This document shows, in pieces, positions 3,417-10,833 of a stretch of 64,000 bases of DNA (its first letter is position 1; each line of letters starts with the position of its first letter). A model generated the notes under the pieces. It searched no databases. It was not told the origin of the DNA and saw only the letters and a list, made by a program, of their open reading frames with translations. The translations under genes were made by a program, and so were the position numbers. The stretch spans positions 62,001 through 126,000 of the forward strand of contig NZ_FRCW01000008.1 in the NCBI RefSeq assembly GCF_900143055.1. Direction: 5' to 3'. The stretch comes from Fibrobacter sp. UWR3. Lineage in GTDB: Bacteria; Fibrobacterota; Fibrobacteria; Fibrobacterales; Fibrobacteraceae.

Positions 3417-4328
3417 ATGGACCGTAAACAGTTTGCTAGGTTTATCAAATTGCTCAAGGAAGCAAATGAAAGGGGCGAAGATGTAGACGCTATCATGAAG
3501 GCGTATGAGCACGAGAATGCTTACATCTACAACGATGGGGTGTTCAAGAAGATTTTCGCAAGCGAGGAGAACATCGCGCTTACCACTGACCTTGTGAACG
3601 CGAGTCTCGACCTCTTCGGGTGCGACTGCATCAGTCACCCAAGAATCGTCAACCCCTTTGTTCCGGGAGAAACGGGCAAGAGCAGCGTAGAGCCTGACAT
3701 TATGCTTGTAAACGACCGCGGCGTGGGACAACCCCGCGACCGCATCTCCATCGACGTGCAGCACAATAACAACACGCTCTACCCGGCACGCCTTGTGCTC
3801 TACGTATCCCGCATTACTAGCAACATGGTGAAGCGCGGCGCCCCTCCGTTGCTCGAAAACCTGAATGTCGTGAGTTTCCAGTTCTTTGAGGCTTTCCCGA
3901 AGTCGAAAAACTACCGGCATGTCGTGCAACTCAGCAATCAGGAGGGCATGCTATATTTCGACTTGCAGACCATGACGATTGTCGAGGTGAAGAAGTTCCT
4001 CGAACATGCCGATGCCTATGCAGGCGACAACAGTCGCCTCGCGCAATGGCTCAGGGCAATCGACACTCTCAACCGCGAGGCAGATTTCAGCGAGTTTTCG
4101 CAGGACCCCGTGTTCAGGGTATTGCAAAATGCCGTAAAAATGTGTAATTTTAGTGCGAGGTATCTTATGACTGTAGATATGAGCGACGTTGATCGGGCTA
4201 TGGAGAAGTACGAGGCCGCTTTGGAAAAATCCAAGGAAATCGCGAAGGGGTTGCTGCGCGATGGTGTGCCGCTTGATGTCATTGTGCGAAATACCAATCT
4301 CCCTGAGAAGGTTATTCTCTCGTTGTAG
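3417..4328 (+). CDS. Rpn-family PD-(D/E)XK nuclease ('transposase' family)
   Basis: A 303-residue protein of the PD-(D/E)XK family often annotated as 'Rpn recombination-promoting nuclease' or 'PDDEXK family transposase'. The nuclease core is seen as YNDGVFKKIFAS near residue 40, VEPDIMLVND near 92 and RISIDVQHNN near 112, with Gln in place of the usual Lys in the last motif. The C-terminal 60 residues are helical and charged and end ENVILSL-like (PEKVILSL), as in Fibrobacter and Bacteroides paralogs. The ATG has an AAAAAGGAA box. Such genes are widespread in multiple copies in gut bacteria; whether this one moves itself is unknown, and no terminal repeats of a transposon are seen around it. 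Confidence 0.85.
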   Translation: MDRKQFARFIKLLKEANERGEDVDAIMKAYEHENAYIYNDGVFKKIFASEENIALTTDLVNASLDLFGCDCISHPRIVNPFVPGETGKSSVEPDIMLVNDRGVGQPRDRISIDVQHNNNTLYPARLVLYVSRITSNMVKRGAPPLLENLNVVSFQFFEAFPKSKNYRHVVQLSNQEGMLYFDLQTMTIVEVKKFLEHADAYAGDNSRLAQWLRAIDTLNREADFSEFSQDPVFRVLQNAVKMCNFSARYLMTVDMSDVDRAMEKYEAALEKSKEIAKGLLRDGVPLDVIVRNTNLPEKVILSL

Positions 4329-4551: not shown

Positions 4552-7500
4552 ATGCTCTTTGTAACTAAATTGAAAATTCTGACTCTTATGACCTGCCTGA
4601 TGCTTGTGGGGCAGGCGTTTGCTCTTGACTGTGCAACGGGTACGCAATGGGGTGATTTCCATACCCAAGAAATGACTAAGGATGATGAAGGCTTCTATAA
4701 TATAAGTGAGCCTGAAGAATTGGCATGGATTGCATGCAAGACAACGCATGATTCAACGAATTACAAATCTTCTCAGGTTCGGTTAACTAAAGACATTGAT
4801 TTGCAAGGGAAACTTTTTATTCCGATTTCTGCGGGAAAAGGGGATCCGAAATTTAGAGGAACTCTTGATGGTCAGGGGCATACCATTCGAGGTCTATTTA
4901 TCAAAGGTTCTGAAATTGCAAAACCTGAAGTTAATGGAATGAAAAACTATGCACAGAATATCGGATTGGTTGCTGTTCTGAGCACGGGTGGGATTATTAG
5001 AAATCTTACGCTGGATGTTTCTGATATTTACGCATCAAATTCCGCAGGGGATGAAGGTACTGTAGGAACGTCAAGTCCTATTTCTGTAGGAACTCTTGTG
5101 GGATGGATGGATGCAGGGACGATTGAAAACTGTATTGTTGAAGGTCGTATTACCACAAGTGGCGACAAAAATCGTGTTGGAGGTCTTGTAGGAAATGTGA
5201 ATAATGCAAATATCTCGAATAGCGTATGTAAAGTATCTATATCGTCGAGTGGTAATGATACTCATGTTGGCGGTGTTGTTGGTGCTCTTAGGAAGGGAGG
5301 TACGGTGAATTTAACATCTTGTGTATTTGAAGGTGATACCCTTATCAGTACTGGAGGAATGGTAGGTGGAATTGTTGGTTATTATGAAAATTCTAAGGTG
5401 AATACAGACAAAGCGTTATATTATTCTGGTAATTATCCGGGTGTAGGTAAAGGAAAATCTGTTGAGACACACAAAGAAGCAAACTTGAATTCTGAAGAAG
5501 TGGTGTGTGCTTTGAATGGGGGGAAATGGATTGTTGAAAACGAAACAGAGACCTGTTCCGGTAATACGAGTAATGTTTGGTCCGAAGGTCAGTCTAGTAT
5601 TTCCATGAATGGCTCCGACGGTTACAAGGTTTCTTTCAATGCCAACGGCGGCTCATTTGCCTCTGGAGCAAAGACTTTCAAGATTGTAGCCAATGGTGCT
5701 ACTATTACTGCTGATGAAATCACAGCACCGACGCGCACTGATATGGACCCTAACACTAATATGACAAAGAGTAAGAAATTTGCTGGCTGGGCAACAACGA
5801 CTGATGCTATTGAACCGACCGAACTGGGCGTAGCCGATGCAAATAAAACCCTATATGCTGTATGGTATGATTTCTATACGGTTACCTTTGAAATAAATTC
5901 GGTAACGCATGAAACACGTACTATTTCTGTTCCCAAGCATGGGCATGTTTCTGCAGAAGGTTTTACTCTTCCTGCGTCTTACTCGATTCCTAATCCGGAT
6001 GATGCGGAAAATCCCATAAAGTATTTCTTTACGGGATGGGCTTATGCAACTAAGTGGTTGGCTGTTAATACTGATCCCACGCCAACTGATACACTTCATC
6101 TGGCCGATATAGATGTTGTTGCTGATGTTCCTTTGTACCCGGTGTGGACCAGAGCGGAAACATTTTCTGTAGCATTTGATGCGACCTTGCATGGAAAGAC
6201 ACATGTCCGTTTTGTCAAGAAGGTAAATGACGGAGATAAGGTTGCTAAACCGGGAGAGAATGATGTTGTTGCTGATCCGGGATACAAGATTATCGGCTGG
6301 TGTACCAATGCAAATTGTACGGAAGGTAGTGTGTATAATTTTGACGCTCAGTTAAAAAGTAATCTTACTCTGTATGCTGAGTGGGATACAGTAGAGTATA
6401 AGATTTCCTATGAGATGAATGGCGGTACGAATAACGTCAGCAATCCGACTTTCTACACCGTTGAATCCGACCCCATTACTTTTGCTGAACCTACATATCC
6501 TGGTTACAAATTTATAGGATGGTTTTATGATGCAGGCTTTACTAGCCCTGCTACCGGGATTGCAAAGAATAGCACCACTGGCGAAAAGACTTTATATGCA
6601 AAATGGGAACAGATTTTTTATACGGTCGAATACCTTTCGGGTAACGAATTGTCGGCGACGATTGTGGCCGACAAGAAACCTTGGGGTGAAAGTGTAACCC
6701 TGAAGGGCGATGAAGTTGCTTTCCAGCGCGAAGGATATATTCATGACGGTTGGAGCTTGACTCCCGGCGGCACTATAGCTTATAATTTTGGCGCAACCTA
6801 TGATAAATATAAAGATCTTGTACTCTTTCCGCATTGGGTTGAAGGGGCGCCGGATGTAGTCCACAATGGTGCGGTAACCATCTATACTTATTCGGAAACT
6901 CATAAGGTAGCTGAAATCAATGGCGACTATAAGGGGCTCGATGCGTTTAGTATAGACGAAGATATTCCTGTTACATCTGTTGTTTTGAATCGTTCGTTAA
7001 CGCCGTATGTGCCTGTGACGATGACTCTCCCGTTTGACATCGCGGTTGATAATGTAGAAAATGCAAAGTTCTATGCGTTTGGTGGAATTTCCATTGATGG
7101 GAATGGTAAAAAGGCGGTGGAAGCGAATCGCGTAAAGACTGGTACTCTAGAGGCCAACACGCCGTATATCGTCATTCCCTTGGCCCAATCTATCACATTT
7201 AGTGGAGCGGTTGTTCTTCGTGAAACTGCCGAACCTGTGGTGGAACTTGGAAATTGGGAGTTCGTGGGTACATATGCTTACAAGACCGTTGCGCAGGAAA
7301 ATGTGGGCTCTATTTATGGTATTTCGGGATCTGCTGAAGGGAATATATCTCAGGGAAAATTTGTTAAATTTGCTGAAGGTTGTAATTTTGTGCCGATGCG
7401 AGCATATTTGTTAAATAAGGAAATCTCTAACAGACGTCTGGCGAAGTCGCTGTACTCTAGGCCGGCAAGTACAGAAATTGCTGAATTTGGTATCAATTGG

Positions 7501-7656
7501 AATGAAGACGATGAGGTTGAGCCTGAAGAGCAAACCACTGTTGTCCGTAAGATAATGAAGACGCCTTCTATCCTGAGAATGGACCGTGTGTTTGATTTGA
7601 AGGGACGTCTTGTCAATGAAAAGTCTAAGCCAAGAGGCGTTTATTTCAATAAGTAG
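4552..7656 (+). CDS. secreted surface protein with GLUG-like motifs and InlB B-repeats
   Basis: A 1034-residue exported protein. Residues 1-25 form a Sec signal peptide ending in QAFA. Residues about 35-300 resemble GLUG/adhesin beta-helix repeats: GTLDGQGHTIRGLFI, then VGGLVGNV, VGGVVGAL and GGIVGYY. From about residue 350 to 760 come five Listeria-Bacteroides InlB B-repeats, each ending in forms like FAGWATT...LYAVW, FIGWFYD...LYAKW. The C-terminus (VFDLKGRLVNEKSKPRGVYF) resembles a T9SS-type sorting tail. It is the first gene of a tight operon with two short peptides and a nucleotidyltransferase. Base composition is more AT-rich than the housekeeping genes. A role in adhesion or peptide display is inference. 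Confidence 0.85.
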   Translation: MLFVTKLKILTLMTCLMLVGQAFALDCATGTQWGDFHTQEMTKDDEGFYNISEPEELAWIACKTTHDSTNYKSSQVRLTKDIDLQGKLFIPISAGKGDPKFRGTLDGQGHTIRGLFIKGSEIAKPEVNGMKNYAQNIGLVAVLSTGGIIRNLTLDVSDIYASNSAGDEGTVGTSSPISVGTLVGWMDAGTIENCIVEGRITTSGDKNRVGGLVGNVNNANISNSVCKVSISSSGNDTHVGGVVGALRKGGTVNLTSCVFEGDTLISTGGMVGGIVGYYENSKVNTDKALYYSGNYPGVGKGKSVETHKEANLNSEEVVCALNGGKWIVENETETCSGNTSNVWSEGQSSISMNGSDGYKVSFNANGGSFASGAKTFKIVANGATITADEITAPTRTDMDPNTNMTKSKKFAGWATTTDAIEPTELGVADANKTLYAVWYDFYTVTFEINSVTHETRTISVPKHGHVSAEGFTLPASYSIPNPDDAENPIKYFFTGWAYATKWLAVNTDPTPTDTLHLADIDVVADVPLYPVWTRAETFSVAFDATLHGKTHVRFVKKVNDGDKVAKPGENDVVADPGYKIIGWCTNANCTEGSVYNFDAQLKSNLTLYAEWDTVEYKISYEMNGGTNNVSNPTFYTVESDPITFAEPTYPGYKFIGWFYDAGFTSPATGIAKNSTTGEKTLYAKWEQIFYTVEYLSGNELSATIVADKKPWGESVTLKGDEVAFQREGYIHDGWSLTPGGTIAYNFGATYDKYKDLVLFPHWVEGAPDVVHNGAVTIYTYSETHKVAEINGDYKGLDAFSIDEDIPVTSVVLNRSLTPYVPVTMTLPFDIAVDNVENAKFYAFGGISIDGNGKKAVEANRVKTGTLEANTPYIVIPLAQSITFSGAVVLRETAEPVVELGNWEFVGTYAYKTVAQENVGSIYGISGSAEGNISQGKFVKFAEGCNFVPMRAYLLNKEISNRRLAKSLYSRPASTEIAEFGINWNEDDEVEPEEQTTVVRKIMKTPSILRMDRVFDLKGRLVNEKSKPRGVYFNK

Positions 7657-7666
7657 GGAGTAATAG

Positions 7667-7798
7667 ATGGAAAAAGAGAAAAAAGAATACGTTGTTCCAG
7701 AAATCGAGGTTGTAAAGCTGTAACGCCAAGCAAACCTTCTGGAGGGAAGTCCAGAACCTGAACCATCTCCGGAGGTCCCTATCAATTTCAATGACTAA
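7667..7798 (+). pseudogene. short peptide gene, RiPP-precursor-like, broken by an ochre stop
   Basis: ATG at 7667 follows AGGGAG and lies 10 bases after the InlB-repeat gene. It reads MEKEKKEYVVPEIEVVKL and then hits TAA at 7721-7723. The frame continues past that stop as RQANLLEGSPEPEPSPEV and further to a second TAA at 7796-7798. The continuation aligns with the intact downstream peptide (VVNIQARGRLLGASSD), so the internal TAA most simply comes from a CAA Gln codon. Either the gene is inactivated, or only the 18-residue leader is made, or the stop is read through. It lies 1 base before the next peptide gene. Confidence 0.7.
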
Positions 7799-7799
7799 T

Positions 7800-7919
7800 A
7801 TGGAAAAAGAAAAGAAAGAGTATGTTGCTCCTAAAATGGATGTTGTAAATATCCAAGCTAGGGGCCGTTTACTCGGTGCTTCTTCTGATCCACCTATTTT
7901 TCATGGTGATGGTGGCTAG
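7800..7919 (+). CDS. 39-residue peptide, RiPP-precursor-like
   Basis: Reads MEKEKKEYVAPKMDVVNIQA and then RGRLLGASSDPPIFHGDGG. The first 16 residues are nearly identical to those of the broken peptide just upstream, which supports it as a real gene despite its size and lack of a clear ribosome site. The leader has the YxxPx(M/I) pattern known from lasso-peptide and other PqqD-type RRE-recognised leaders, and the tail is short, Gly-rich and divergent. Six bases downstream starts a nucleotidyltransferase of a family found in peptide-modification loci. No protease, cyclase or RRE protein is present, so calling it a RiPP precursor is inference. Similar small YxxP peptides of unknown role exist in Bacteroidota and Firmicutes. 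Confidence 0.6.
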   Translation: MEKEKKEYVAPKMDVVNIQARGRLLGASSDPPIFHGDGG

Positions 7920-7925
7920 TACGCC

Positions 7926-9119
7926 GTGTTGAATAAGTCACCTGGAGTTGAACGTAATCTTTTTACCCTCATTCGGCTTGCATTCGGTGCAGGCGAGGGG
8001 GAATGTGCAAATTTCAACGTAGAGACCGCTGAAGAGTGGTCTCTTTTGTATTCTCTGGCATCCAAACTTGCGGTGGTGGGCATCGCGTATGCGGGGGTCT
8101 GCAAGTTGCCGAAGGACCGGCGGCCGCCGCTGGACCTCGCTTTCCAGTGGGCGAGCGAGGCGGAGGCGATTCGCGGGCACAACCGCCTGGTGAATGACGA
8201 GGCTAGGCGGCTCACGGAGCTGTTTGCGGGCGAGGGGAGGCGGACGGCCATCCTGAAGGGGGCGGCGAATGCGCGCCTGTACCCGGACAGGTTCATGCGT
8301 CAATGCGGAGACATCGACATTTGGATTGATGGCGGGCGCGATTCTGTTATCGGCTTGCTGCGCAGGCTCGGCCTGATGGAGCCCGAACCGCAGGCGATTA
8401 CCGGCCGCAAGATGACGTACGAGGAAAAGTACGCCGAGGCGAAGCGGAAACTCAACGAGAACGTCTCGAGGCATCATGTGCACCTGGCCCACGATGCGGC
8501 TGCGGTCACGGTGGAGGCGCATTTTTTGCCTTCGTCGGGGAACCGGAACCCGTTTGCAGACAAACGACTAATGCGTTTCTTGCAATGCGAGATTTTAAAA
8601 ACGGAATTTGTACCGGAGGGTTTCTATGTCCCGTCGCTCAAGTTTGCTCTTGCGATGCAGCTGGCGCATATCCAGACGCACTTTATGGCGGGCGGCATCG
8701 GCCTGAAGCAGATAACCGACTACTACGTGCTTTTGCGGCAGGCGGGCGACAGCGACCGTCTCGAAATCGCGAAGAACCTCCGCAGGTTCGGCCTGCTGCG
8801 CGTGTCCAGTGCCCTGATGTGGTTGCTGGGGCATATTTACGGGCTCGAGCGCGAGCGTATGCTGTGCGCCCCCGATGAGCGGCTTGGCCAGCACATGCTC
8901 GAGATTGTGCTTGCCGGAGGAAACTTTGGCTTCTATTTCAAAGCGAATTACCGGAAACTACCCATGCGTTGGATTGGCAAGCGTTGGCGTGCCATCAAGT
9001 TCTGTCCGTTCTCGCCTATAGAGGTGTTCTGGTCGGAGGTCGCCTACTGGCGGACCTTTGCCCGCACGCTCCCTATCCGTATCAAACTGCGGAAGTTCTC
9101 GATTCGAGATATGTTCTAA
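7926..9119 (+). CDS. nucleotidyltransferase family protein (PF14907-like)
   Basis: A 397-residue protein of the uncharacterised nucleotidyltransferase family found in peptide natural-product and surface-polysaccharide loci. The conserved ILKGAANARLYPD lies near residue 110 and the metal-binding motif GDIDIWIDGG near 127-136 (two Asp). The C-terminal half is helical with no membrane segment. It starts at GTG 7926 (or TTG 7929), 6 bases after the peptide stop, with no separate Shine-Dalgarno, suggesting coupled translation. The gene is much more GC-rich than the InlB-repeat gene at the head of the operon. A hairpin terminator follows at once. The substrate is unknown; association with the two short peptides is the best contextual clue. 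Confidence 0.8.
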   Translation: MLNKSPGVERNLFTLIRLAFGAGEGECANFNVETAEEWSLLYSLASKLAVVGIAYAGVCKLPKDRRPPLDLAFQWASEAEAIRGHNRLVNDEARRLTELFAGEGRRTAILKGAANARLYPDRFMRQCGDIDIWIDGGRDSVIGLLRRLGLMEPEPQAITGRKMTYEEKYAEAKRKLNENVSRHHVHLAHDAAAVTVEAHFLPSSGNRNPFADKRLMRFLQCEILKTEFVPEGFYVPSLKFALAMQLAHIQTHFMAGGIGLKQITDYYVLLRQAGDSDRLEIAKNLRRFGLLRVSSALMWLLGHIYGLERERMLCAPDERLGQHMLEIVLAGGNFGFYFKANYRKLPMRWIGKRWRAIKFCPFSPIEVFWSEVAYWRTFARTLPIRIKLRKFSIRDMF

Positions 9120-9150: not shown

Positions 9151-9163
9151 ACAAAAAGGAAAT

Positions 9164-9190
9164 CCCCGGTTGAGCCGGGGAGTTTTAATT
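9164..9190. terminator. second hairpin between convergent genes
   Basis: CCCCGG, loop TTGAG, CCGGGG, then AGTTTTAATTT on the plus strand; on the minus strand the stem is followed by ATTTCC. It sits between two convergent genes and may serve both. Confidence 0.65.
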
Positions 9191-9204: not shown

Positions 9205-10833
9205 TTAGTATCTGTCTTTCAGCACCTGCGGGCATTCCACTTCAACGTAGTTGTGCTCAGGGTTGCCTGCGGCATGCAGGTATTCAACAAGGAACATGCA
9301 GCCTTGCTTGGCCTTGCTGTCGTTGCTGAACGCCTTGTTGCACTTTTCGGTAAGGCAACTGACATAGGTGCCTGCATTGTAGTTACTTTCGGTTTCACAG
9401 TCGGAGAGGAGGCCCCCGTACTGCTGGCCCTGTGCGCCCCAGCCCATGCTGGAACAGCCGTTGAATATGCCGACGCCGCCACCCGGGATCATGATATCGA
9501 ACTGGCCCTGCGACACGTCGCCACCGATATTCGTTGTCATGATGATGAGCTTTTTGCCCTTGATAGCCTTGGTGTTTGCATTTGTAGAGTTGTAGTGGCC
9601 TTCGCCGGTAAACGTGAGCTGGTAGCACTTGCCGCAGGAACCGCCGTCACTTGCCGGTACAGCGGCGAATGCGAAGCCCATGTCGGAACAGCCGTCAATG
9701 GTGAATGGAATCTGGCTTGTGCAGGCCATCATCGAACCGCCTGCGCAGACGCTCCCTGCGCCCCAGTCGGTGCTTTCGGTTGTACCCTTGTTGGTGCACT
9801 GCTTGGAATGGTAAGAGGTATTGTTTTGCACAGAGCAGTGGGGCTTGCAGCAGTCCCAGTAACGGGTGGCCCAGCCGGATCCGGTTTTGCCGCCGTTCTT
9901 GACAACGATGTTCGGGCATCCGCCGGTCAACGGCTGCTGCGAGCTGCTGGAAGACTTGGGTGCAACGCTGGAGCTAGACTTTGCACTGCTCGAGGATTTT
10001 GCAGAGGAACTAGACTTTGCGCTGCTCGAGGACTTGGGCTGGGTGGTGCTGCTCGAAGGTTGAGCCGTTCCCGCTCCCATATCCTGGCAATTTTTGTTGT
10101 TCGGGTCGTAGTAGCAGTTGATGTTGCAGGTCTTGTCGTAGGCGTACTGTTCCTGGTGGGGGCCCTTAAGGCTCTGGTAGTAGGCGACGCATGTGCCCGA
10201 CGGTGCATCGAGGCACTGGCCGTCACAATTTGTGTTGGCGGGTGTCGCGGAAGACTTCGGCTGCTCCTGCTTGGCAGAGGAGGAAGACTTCGGCTGTTCA
10301 GGAGTGGCAGACGAGGTGGGCTTTGGCTCCTCGGGGTTGGTTGTTGCGGAAGATTCCGGGATGACCGGAGTATCCGAACTGGTAATTACCGGGTCCGGGG
10401 TGACCGGATTCGGGTCTTCGACGACTTCGCCACCCGGGACCGGGTCAACGGGCTGGACGATGGGGTTGCCTGCCAGGTCCGTAATCGTGCCATCGGGGTT
10501 GATAATCGTCTGGTCCGGGGTAAGTACCGGGAGCTGCGAGAGGTCCGGGATGGTCGCAATGGGTGTGAGTGCGCCATCGTAAACGATGCCCAATGCCGGA
10601 TCGTATGTGCCGACGGGGTTGCCCGCCTTGTCTGCAACGAAGAACCCTGCTTCGGTCGGCGTGATGATGTAGGTCTGGTCGCCGTTGAAAATCCAGCTAG
10701 GGGTAGTGACAGCGGCAAACTGTTCGGCACCCTGCGGAGTGGTGGGGACAGTAATTGCTGCTTCATCGGAGCAGTTCCAGGCGATCACCAGTGCGCCTGC
10801 AACAAGTAATGGCTTAAAGAAAGGAATTTTCAT
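9205..10833 (-). CDS. GH45 endoglucanase lipoprotein
   Basis: A 542-residue endo-beta-1,4-glucanase of family 45. The lipobox VIAWNC gives Cys21. Residues 22-150 form an uncharacterised domain, then Pro/Ser/Glu linkers. Residues about 203-252 are a compact Cys-rich module (about six Cys), followed by repeated SSSSAK linkers to residue 300. The catalytic domain begins at about 305 and shows the GH45 signature TRYWDCCKPHC (T323 to C333, nucleophile Asp327) and the second acid in SQGQFDIMIPGGG (Asp446), plus HAAGNPEHNYVEVECP at the end. It acts on cellulose at the cell surface. It is monocistronic. The identity of the N-terminal domain and the Cys-rich module is unknown. Confidence 0.92.
   Translation of the reverse strand: MKIPFFKPLLVAGALVIAWNCSDEAAITVPTTPQGAEQFAAVTTPSWIFNGDQTYIITPTEAGFFVADKAGNPVGTYDPALGIVYDGALTPIATIPDLSQLPVLTPDQTIINPDGTITDLAGNPIVQPVDPVPGGEVVEDPNPVTPDPVITSSDTPVIPESSATTNPEEPKPTSSATPEQPKSSSSAKQEQPKSSATPANTNCDGQCLDAPSGTCVAYYQSLKGPHQEQYAYDKTCNINCYYDPNNKNCQDMGAGTAQPSSSTTQPKSSSSAKSSSSAKSSSSAKSSSSVAPKSSSSSQQPLTGGCPNIVVKNGGKTGSGWATRYWDCCKPHCSVQNNTSYHSKQCTNKGTTESTDWGAGSVCAGGSMMACTSQIPFTIDGCSDMGFAFAAVPASDGGSCGKCYQLTFTGEGHYNSTNANTKAIKGKKLIIMTTNIGGDVSQGQFDIMIPGGGVGIFNGCSSMGWGAQGQQYGGLLSDCETESNYNAGTYVSCLTEKCNKAFSNDSKAKQGCMFLVEYLHAAGNPEHNYVEVECPQVLKDRY

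Follow-up and report, generated by a model that had tools for sequence, protein, structure and literature searches.

What do two very short genes encode when they lie between a gene for a secreted protein and one for a nucleotidyltransferase, and the first of them is interrupted by a stop codon? They occupy part of a 64,000-nucleotide stretch of the genome of Fibrobacter sp. UWR3, which we analysed as a whole and refer to as the window. Our answer, which we consider probable, is that the window contains one of the precursor loci of a RiPP system resembling the linear polyphosphorylated peptides (LPPs), with peptide 1 as a nonsense allele and peptide 2 as the working precursor.

An operon with an interrupted first peptide

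Features of the locus, and of a distant operon discussed below, are listed in Table 1. As the initial annotation had noted, two adjacent peptides with near-identical leaders lie between the gene for the secreted protein, here assigned to a family called c0, and a PF14907 gene. Only 10 nt separate the c0 stop from the start of peptide 1, and a scan found no coding-strand terminator-like site between c0, peptide 1, peptide 2 and the nucleotidyltransferase gene (NTP); a hairpin appears only after NTP. This tight order supports the single operon that had been proposed, whose four genes would be co-transcribed, and the PF14907-like identity given to the nucleotidyltransferase is confirmed by Pfam. 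A PD-(D/E)XK transposase-family nuclease gene (PF12784; window positions 3417–4328, + strand) lies directly upstream of the operon, and a GH45 endoglucanase gene with a Ser-rich linker (PF02015, E 2e-31; 9208–10833, − strand) is convergent with it.

Table 1. Features of the peptide locus (window positions) and of the distant operon in the same genome (positions on contig C8).
Feature	Position	Strand	Description
Secreted protein, family c0	4552..7656	+	1034 aa; signal peptide-like N-terminus; List_Bact_rpt/Flg_new repeats and GLUG motifs (Pfam)
Conserved C-terminal domain of c0	6934..7653	+	About 235 positions, ends DLKGRLVNEKSKPRGVYFNK; from alignment and genome search
Peptide 1 as encoded	7667..7723	+	ATG 7667; leader MEKEKKEYVVPEIEVVKL; YxxP at 7688-7699; premature TAA 7721-7723; family profile
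Peptide 1, relic core after the stop	7724..7798	+	Open frame RQANLLEGSPEPEPSPEVPINFND (RQANLLEGS...NFND); LLxxS; conserved Ser codon 7748-7750; original stop TAA 7796-7798
Peptide 2, intact putative precursor	7800..7919	+	MEKEKKEYVAPKMDVVNIQARGRLLGASSDPPIFHGDGG, 39 aa; ATG 7800 (alternative ATG 7791); YxxP leader; LLGAS, conserved Ser codon 7881-7883; variable core
NTP_transf_5 nucleotidyltransferase (NTP)	7926..9119	+	PF14907, E 4e-41
Terminator-like hairpin	9163..9181	+	Strong, closing the operon; scan only
HprK-like predicted kinase	C8:151372-152232	-	
S26-type peptidase	C8:150926-151375	-	
PqqD (discrete RRE)	C8:150660-150929	-	89 aa; PF05402, E 2e-15
ABC exporter	C8:148912-150561	-	ABC_membrane and ABC_tran

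The initial annotation held that the TAA cuts a gene whose tail, read past the stop, matches that of its neighbor, and proposed looking for CAA at 7721 in other strains. The match is borne out. When the family profile is built with the window's peptide 2 left out, the leader alone scores 23.6 bits and the leader plus tail 51.0 bits; shuffling the dinucleotides of the tail 2000 times never gives that value (best, 35.5 bits), so the tail is taken to be the true remnant of a family member. The choice of CAA needs correcting: the residue in this column differs among relatives (K, Q, D or A), which leaves the ancestral codon unspecified.

Peptide 1 of the window is the only family member with a stop inside the family region among the matches listed (approximately 150 members from 61 genomes); a second flagged case, in genome G020, proved to be that peptide's normal end. 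The orthologous loci whose NTP genes are nearest (L136–L140) each carry two intact peptides. The most economical reading of these sequences is that peptide 1 represents the first precursor in a nonsense allele, which would encode a leader only, and the loss may well be recent, given that the tail still resembles a family member. As a single nucleotide separates the original stop from the start of peptide 2, we would guess that the early stop weakens translational coupling to the second peptide. We also asked whether the TAA could be functional, through read-through, recoding or a deliberate leader-only peptide. The tail does retain its LL pair, its Ser 20 residues after the Tyr of YxxP and a frame that stays open to its original stop, and a leader-only peptide that competes for the RRE is conceivable, but the lack of a stop in any listed relative and the intact first peptides at L136–L140 speak against this, and a recent nonsense mutation already accounts for the intact tail; we regard a functional stop as extremely unlikely. 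A recoded genome was rejected as the source of the TAA, since long frames are open in the standard code and a single family member is affected.

A precursor family and a distant maturation operon

Neither Pfam nor NCBIfam has a model for the peptide family, which is present in 56 of the 61 genomes of the genus Fibrobacter, with as many as 13 copies per genome and often in tandem pairs; the 23 genomes from other genera of the phylum yielded two doubtful matches only. All 135 distinct peptides from Fibrobacter and Prevotella have the Tyr of YxxP, and a Ser lies exactly 20 residues after it in 116 of them (within one residue of that position in 133), usually as part of LLxxS, with a variable C-terminal remainder. 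Judged from sequence, they have the look of a leader followed by a fixed cleavage or modification site and a variable core, and the universal YxxP agrees with the earlier description of RiPP-like precursors whose leader is of the type recognized by RREs. That description would have been undermined by peptides missing beside homologous NTP genes; in many species they immediately precede PF14907 genes. In genome G025, peptide copies lie at the extreme ends of contigs C2 and C22, which suggests that repeated c0–peptide cassettes break assemblies.

The window's genome has two PF14907 genes, each adjoining a peptide, and the active-site residues G128, D129 and D131 (GD.D) of NTP are invariant in 16 homologues. 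The second peptide locus (L004; C10:38000-57000), ordered c0–peptide–PF14907, closes an exopolysaccharide-like cluster that encodes a Wzc-like protein, a flippase, a polymerase and glycosyltransferases, as read from their sequences.

No maturation enzymes had been seen alongside the peptides, which is correct for the locus but not for the genome: an operon encoding an HprK-like protein, an S26-type peptidase, a discrete RRE (PqqD) and an ABC exporter sits further along this contig, 81 kb downstream, and such genes stand beside peptide–NTP pairs elsewhere. Its first three genes have overlapping stop and start codons, its flanks hold serS, NUDIX and OmpA genes, and neither a precursor nor NTP adjoins it in this genome. 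Complete c0–peptide–NTP–HprK–S26–PqqD–ABC operons were found in other Fibrobacter (L140, L156, L090 and L121), and a profile search of genome contigs with the NTP alignment recovered c0–peptide–NTP–HprK...PqqD–ABC loci in rumen Prevotella (L157, L162, L183 and L185, among others). The PqqD of the window's genome is 51–65% identical to Bacteroidota PqqD proteins. In a tree of NTP proteins, which includes one “uncultured bacterium” row labelled Fibrobacter, the Prevotella and Fibrobacter sequences form separate groups, and a recent gene transfer between the two is unsupported.

PqqD matches occur in 57 of the 61 genus genomes, with one copy in nearly every genome, and strong PqqD matches covary with the peptides: 54 genomes have both, two have peptides only, two have PqqD only and three have neither (Fisher p = 0.0026). 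The assemblies of the four discordant genomes (peptides without PqqD in G018 and G064, PqqD without detected peptides in G032 and G062) are only 71–90% complete. Two fairly complete genomes, G001 and G014, are missing peptides, PF14907 and strong PqqD alike, a pattern suggestive of loss of the entire system.

The HprK-like proteins keep the motifs SGTGKST, NDDNPVV and GSPWSGKT, and a predicted structure (pLDDT 94.6) shows the PEPCK/HprK fold, with Z 15.3 to PEPCK and a Foldseek value of 3.6e-5 to HprK/P; on motifs and fold, the protein is predicted to be a kinase. Ser30, His68 and Asp83 of the S26-type peptidase are invariant in 16 of 16 proteins from two phyla, and the NCBIfam model sigpep_I matches it below its curated cut-off (E 2.6e-6 and 1.4e-5). 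A profile of the RRE extends to the lasso RREs TfuB1 (E 0.0036) and PbaB1 (E 0.015). The discrete RRE would bind the YxxP leader, whereupon the kinase would phosphorylate, perhaps repeatedly, the Ser 20 residues after the leader Tyr, and the PF14907 enzyme might place a nucleotidyl or sugar group on that Ser phosphate. This last transfer is the weak step, because the corresponding enzyme LppN did nothing detectable in the one LPP tested (PMC13381572). By analogy with LPPs, the S26/SipW-type peptidase would then cleave after the LL pair, which would make the Ser core position 3, and the MsbA-like ABC protein would export a linear product.

Several of these elements are shared with lasso peptides, and we considered whether the precursors belong to that class, with a cyclase and B2 peptidase encoded elsewhere. 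The paeninodin and pseudomycoidin lasso systems likewise have a Y/WxxP leader, a discrete RRE and an HprK-like Ser kinase; their clusters also carry nucleotidyltransferases, and that of pseudomycoidin glycosylates a phosphorylated Ser (PMC8498205). A few peptides weakly match lasso precursor models below threshold (E 0.07–0.22). However, the B2 cysteine peptidase (PF13471) is missing from all 61 genomes, on which ground lasso identity was rejected, and a different peptidase occupies its place in the operon. There is also no macrolactam synthetase or other cyclase-like gene among the HprK–S26–PqqD–ABC operon and the flanking proteins scanned (serS, NUDIX and OmpA), and the conserved Ser is found shortly past the presumed leader rather than at the C-terminus. 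We consider the lasso reading highly unlikely.

Pairing with a secreted protein

Directly upstream of 50 of 57 distinct peptides, in the same orientation, lies a gene of the c0 family, usually 0–40 nt from the first peptide. The pairing also holds in the other direction: across 11 good genomes, a peptide is directly downstream of 41 of the 45 strong c0 matches, and in two of the four exceptions the next gene is another c0 that does have a peptide. Prevotella loci show c0–peptide pairing as well. We found no prior description of it in the literature.

Lengths of c0 proteins span 286 to more than 2600 aa, and the only part that the proteins have in common is the C-terminal domain of about 235 positions, for which an AF2 model of moderate confidence (pLDDT 76.6) has no match in the PDB (best Foldseek E 0.036, prob 0.08; VIA Z at most 3.1). 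The c0 proteins resemble those with type IX secretion C-terminal domains (TIGR04183) of Fibrobacter (PMC6851124) in looking secreted and in a DLKGR...KG-Y...KK-like tail, a motif alike by eye only, but differ in the length of the domain and its lack of a structural match. Both c0 proteins of the window's genome fall outside its 44 TIGR04183 matches (E ≤ 1e-3) and are not recognized by that model as canonical T9SS cargo.

The strongest linkage of the peptides is thus to c0 and not to the enzymes, and their start codons frequently adjoin the c0 stop or overlap it. Such an arrangement would also suit unmodified peptides that serve c0 as small cytoplasmic or periplasmic partners (a chaperone, secretion pilot or regulator), the RRE module being unrelated. 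That the peptides lie within NTP–HprK–S26–PqqD–ABC operons in two phyla, that YxxP is the known RRE ligand, and that the Ser is fixed in position while the rest of the core varies all make this reading distinctly unlikely.

If, as we favor, the peptides are matured in an LPP-like manner, the exported linear product would act together with the co-encoded, secreted c0. We tentatively suggest surface decoration or delivery, in which each scattered RiPP is dedicated to its own c0, and perhaps covalently or tightly joined with it, while a single phosphorylating and nucleotidylating module of the LPP type matures them all. If true, this would be the first biological role for LPP-like peptides, and Fibrobacter and Prevotella would be equipping their secreted proteins in a new way. 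With the same maturation, peptide and c0 could instead form an antagonism pair, a modified bacteriocin with its co-secreted carrier, rather than a structural decoration of the surface. The many copies, the variable cores, the sets of loci that differ between species and the exporter's closest NCBIfam model, which describes bacteriocin-export ABC proteins and is matched below its cut-off, would fit such a pair, but no recurring candidate immunity gene was seen beside the peptides and the size range of c0 is unlike that of one carrier, so we rate antagonism as unlikely.

Comparison with linear polyphosphorylated peptides

LPPs were described in May 2026 in Nat Commun from the lpp cluster of Paenibacillus alginolyticus, where they and the paeninodins are stated to be restricted to Bacillota and of unknown role (PMC13381572). 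The Fibrobacter system shares their five-gene set of a SipW-type signal peptidase, discrete RRE, HprK-like kinase, NTP transferase and MsbA-like exporter, and because the gene set is that of LPPs, it looks to work in an LPP-like way. In both, the precursors are short and carry YxxP with a conserved Ser further on, a macrolactam cyclase is missing, and no peptidase domain was found in the exporter. The Ser30, His68 and Asp83 of the Fibrobacter peptidase match the catalytic S29, H68 and D93 of LppS, and the LPP loci of Bacilli are sometimes embedded in capsule or exopolysaccharide loci (PMC13381572), a setting that recurs here at L004. By its gene set the system is very likely an LPP relative, one whose leader departs from the full LPP consensus, YxxPxVLxHQxIxFETxxS (PMC13381572), in ending in LLxxS rather than FETxxS and in a Tyr–Ser spacing of 20 rather than 18. 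For the RRE, LppB is not among the PDB matches.

Surveys of Bacteroidales and rumen RiPPs (PMC10352776, PMC7533575, PMC13289728) do not describe the system in the passages we located. What is new is an LPP-type module in two further phyla, dispersed precursors that would be served in trans, and the two-way pairing of peptide and c0. Its occurrence in cellulose-degrading Fibrobacter and rumen Prevotella would widen the family from Bacillota to Fibrobacterota and Bacteroidota, and the near-obligatory pairing offers the first concrete lead on the function of LPP-like peptides. Many scattered precursors served by one distant enzyme set also form a RiPP layout that neighborhood-based genome mining would tend to miss. 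Unlike those of LPPs, the precursors here, whose modification we infer, are dispersed over the genome around a single module, and nearly every one is paired with a secreted c0 protein.
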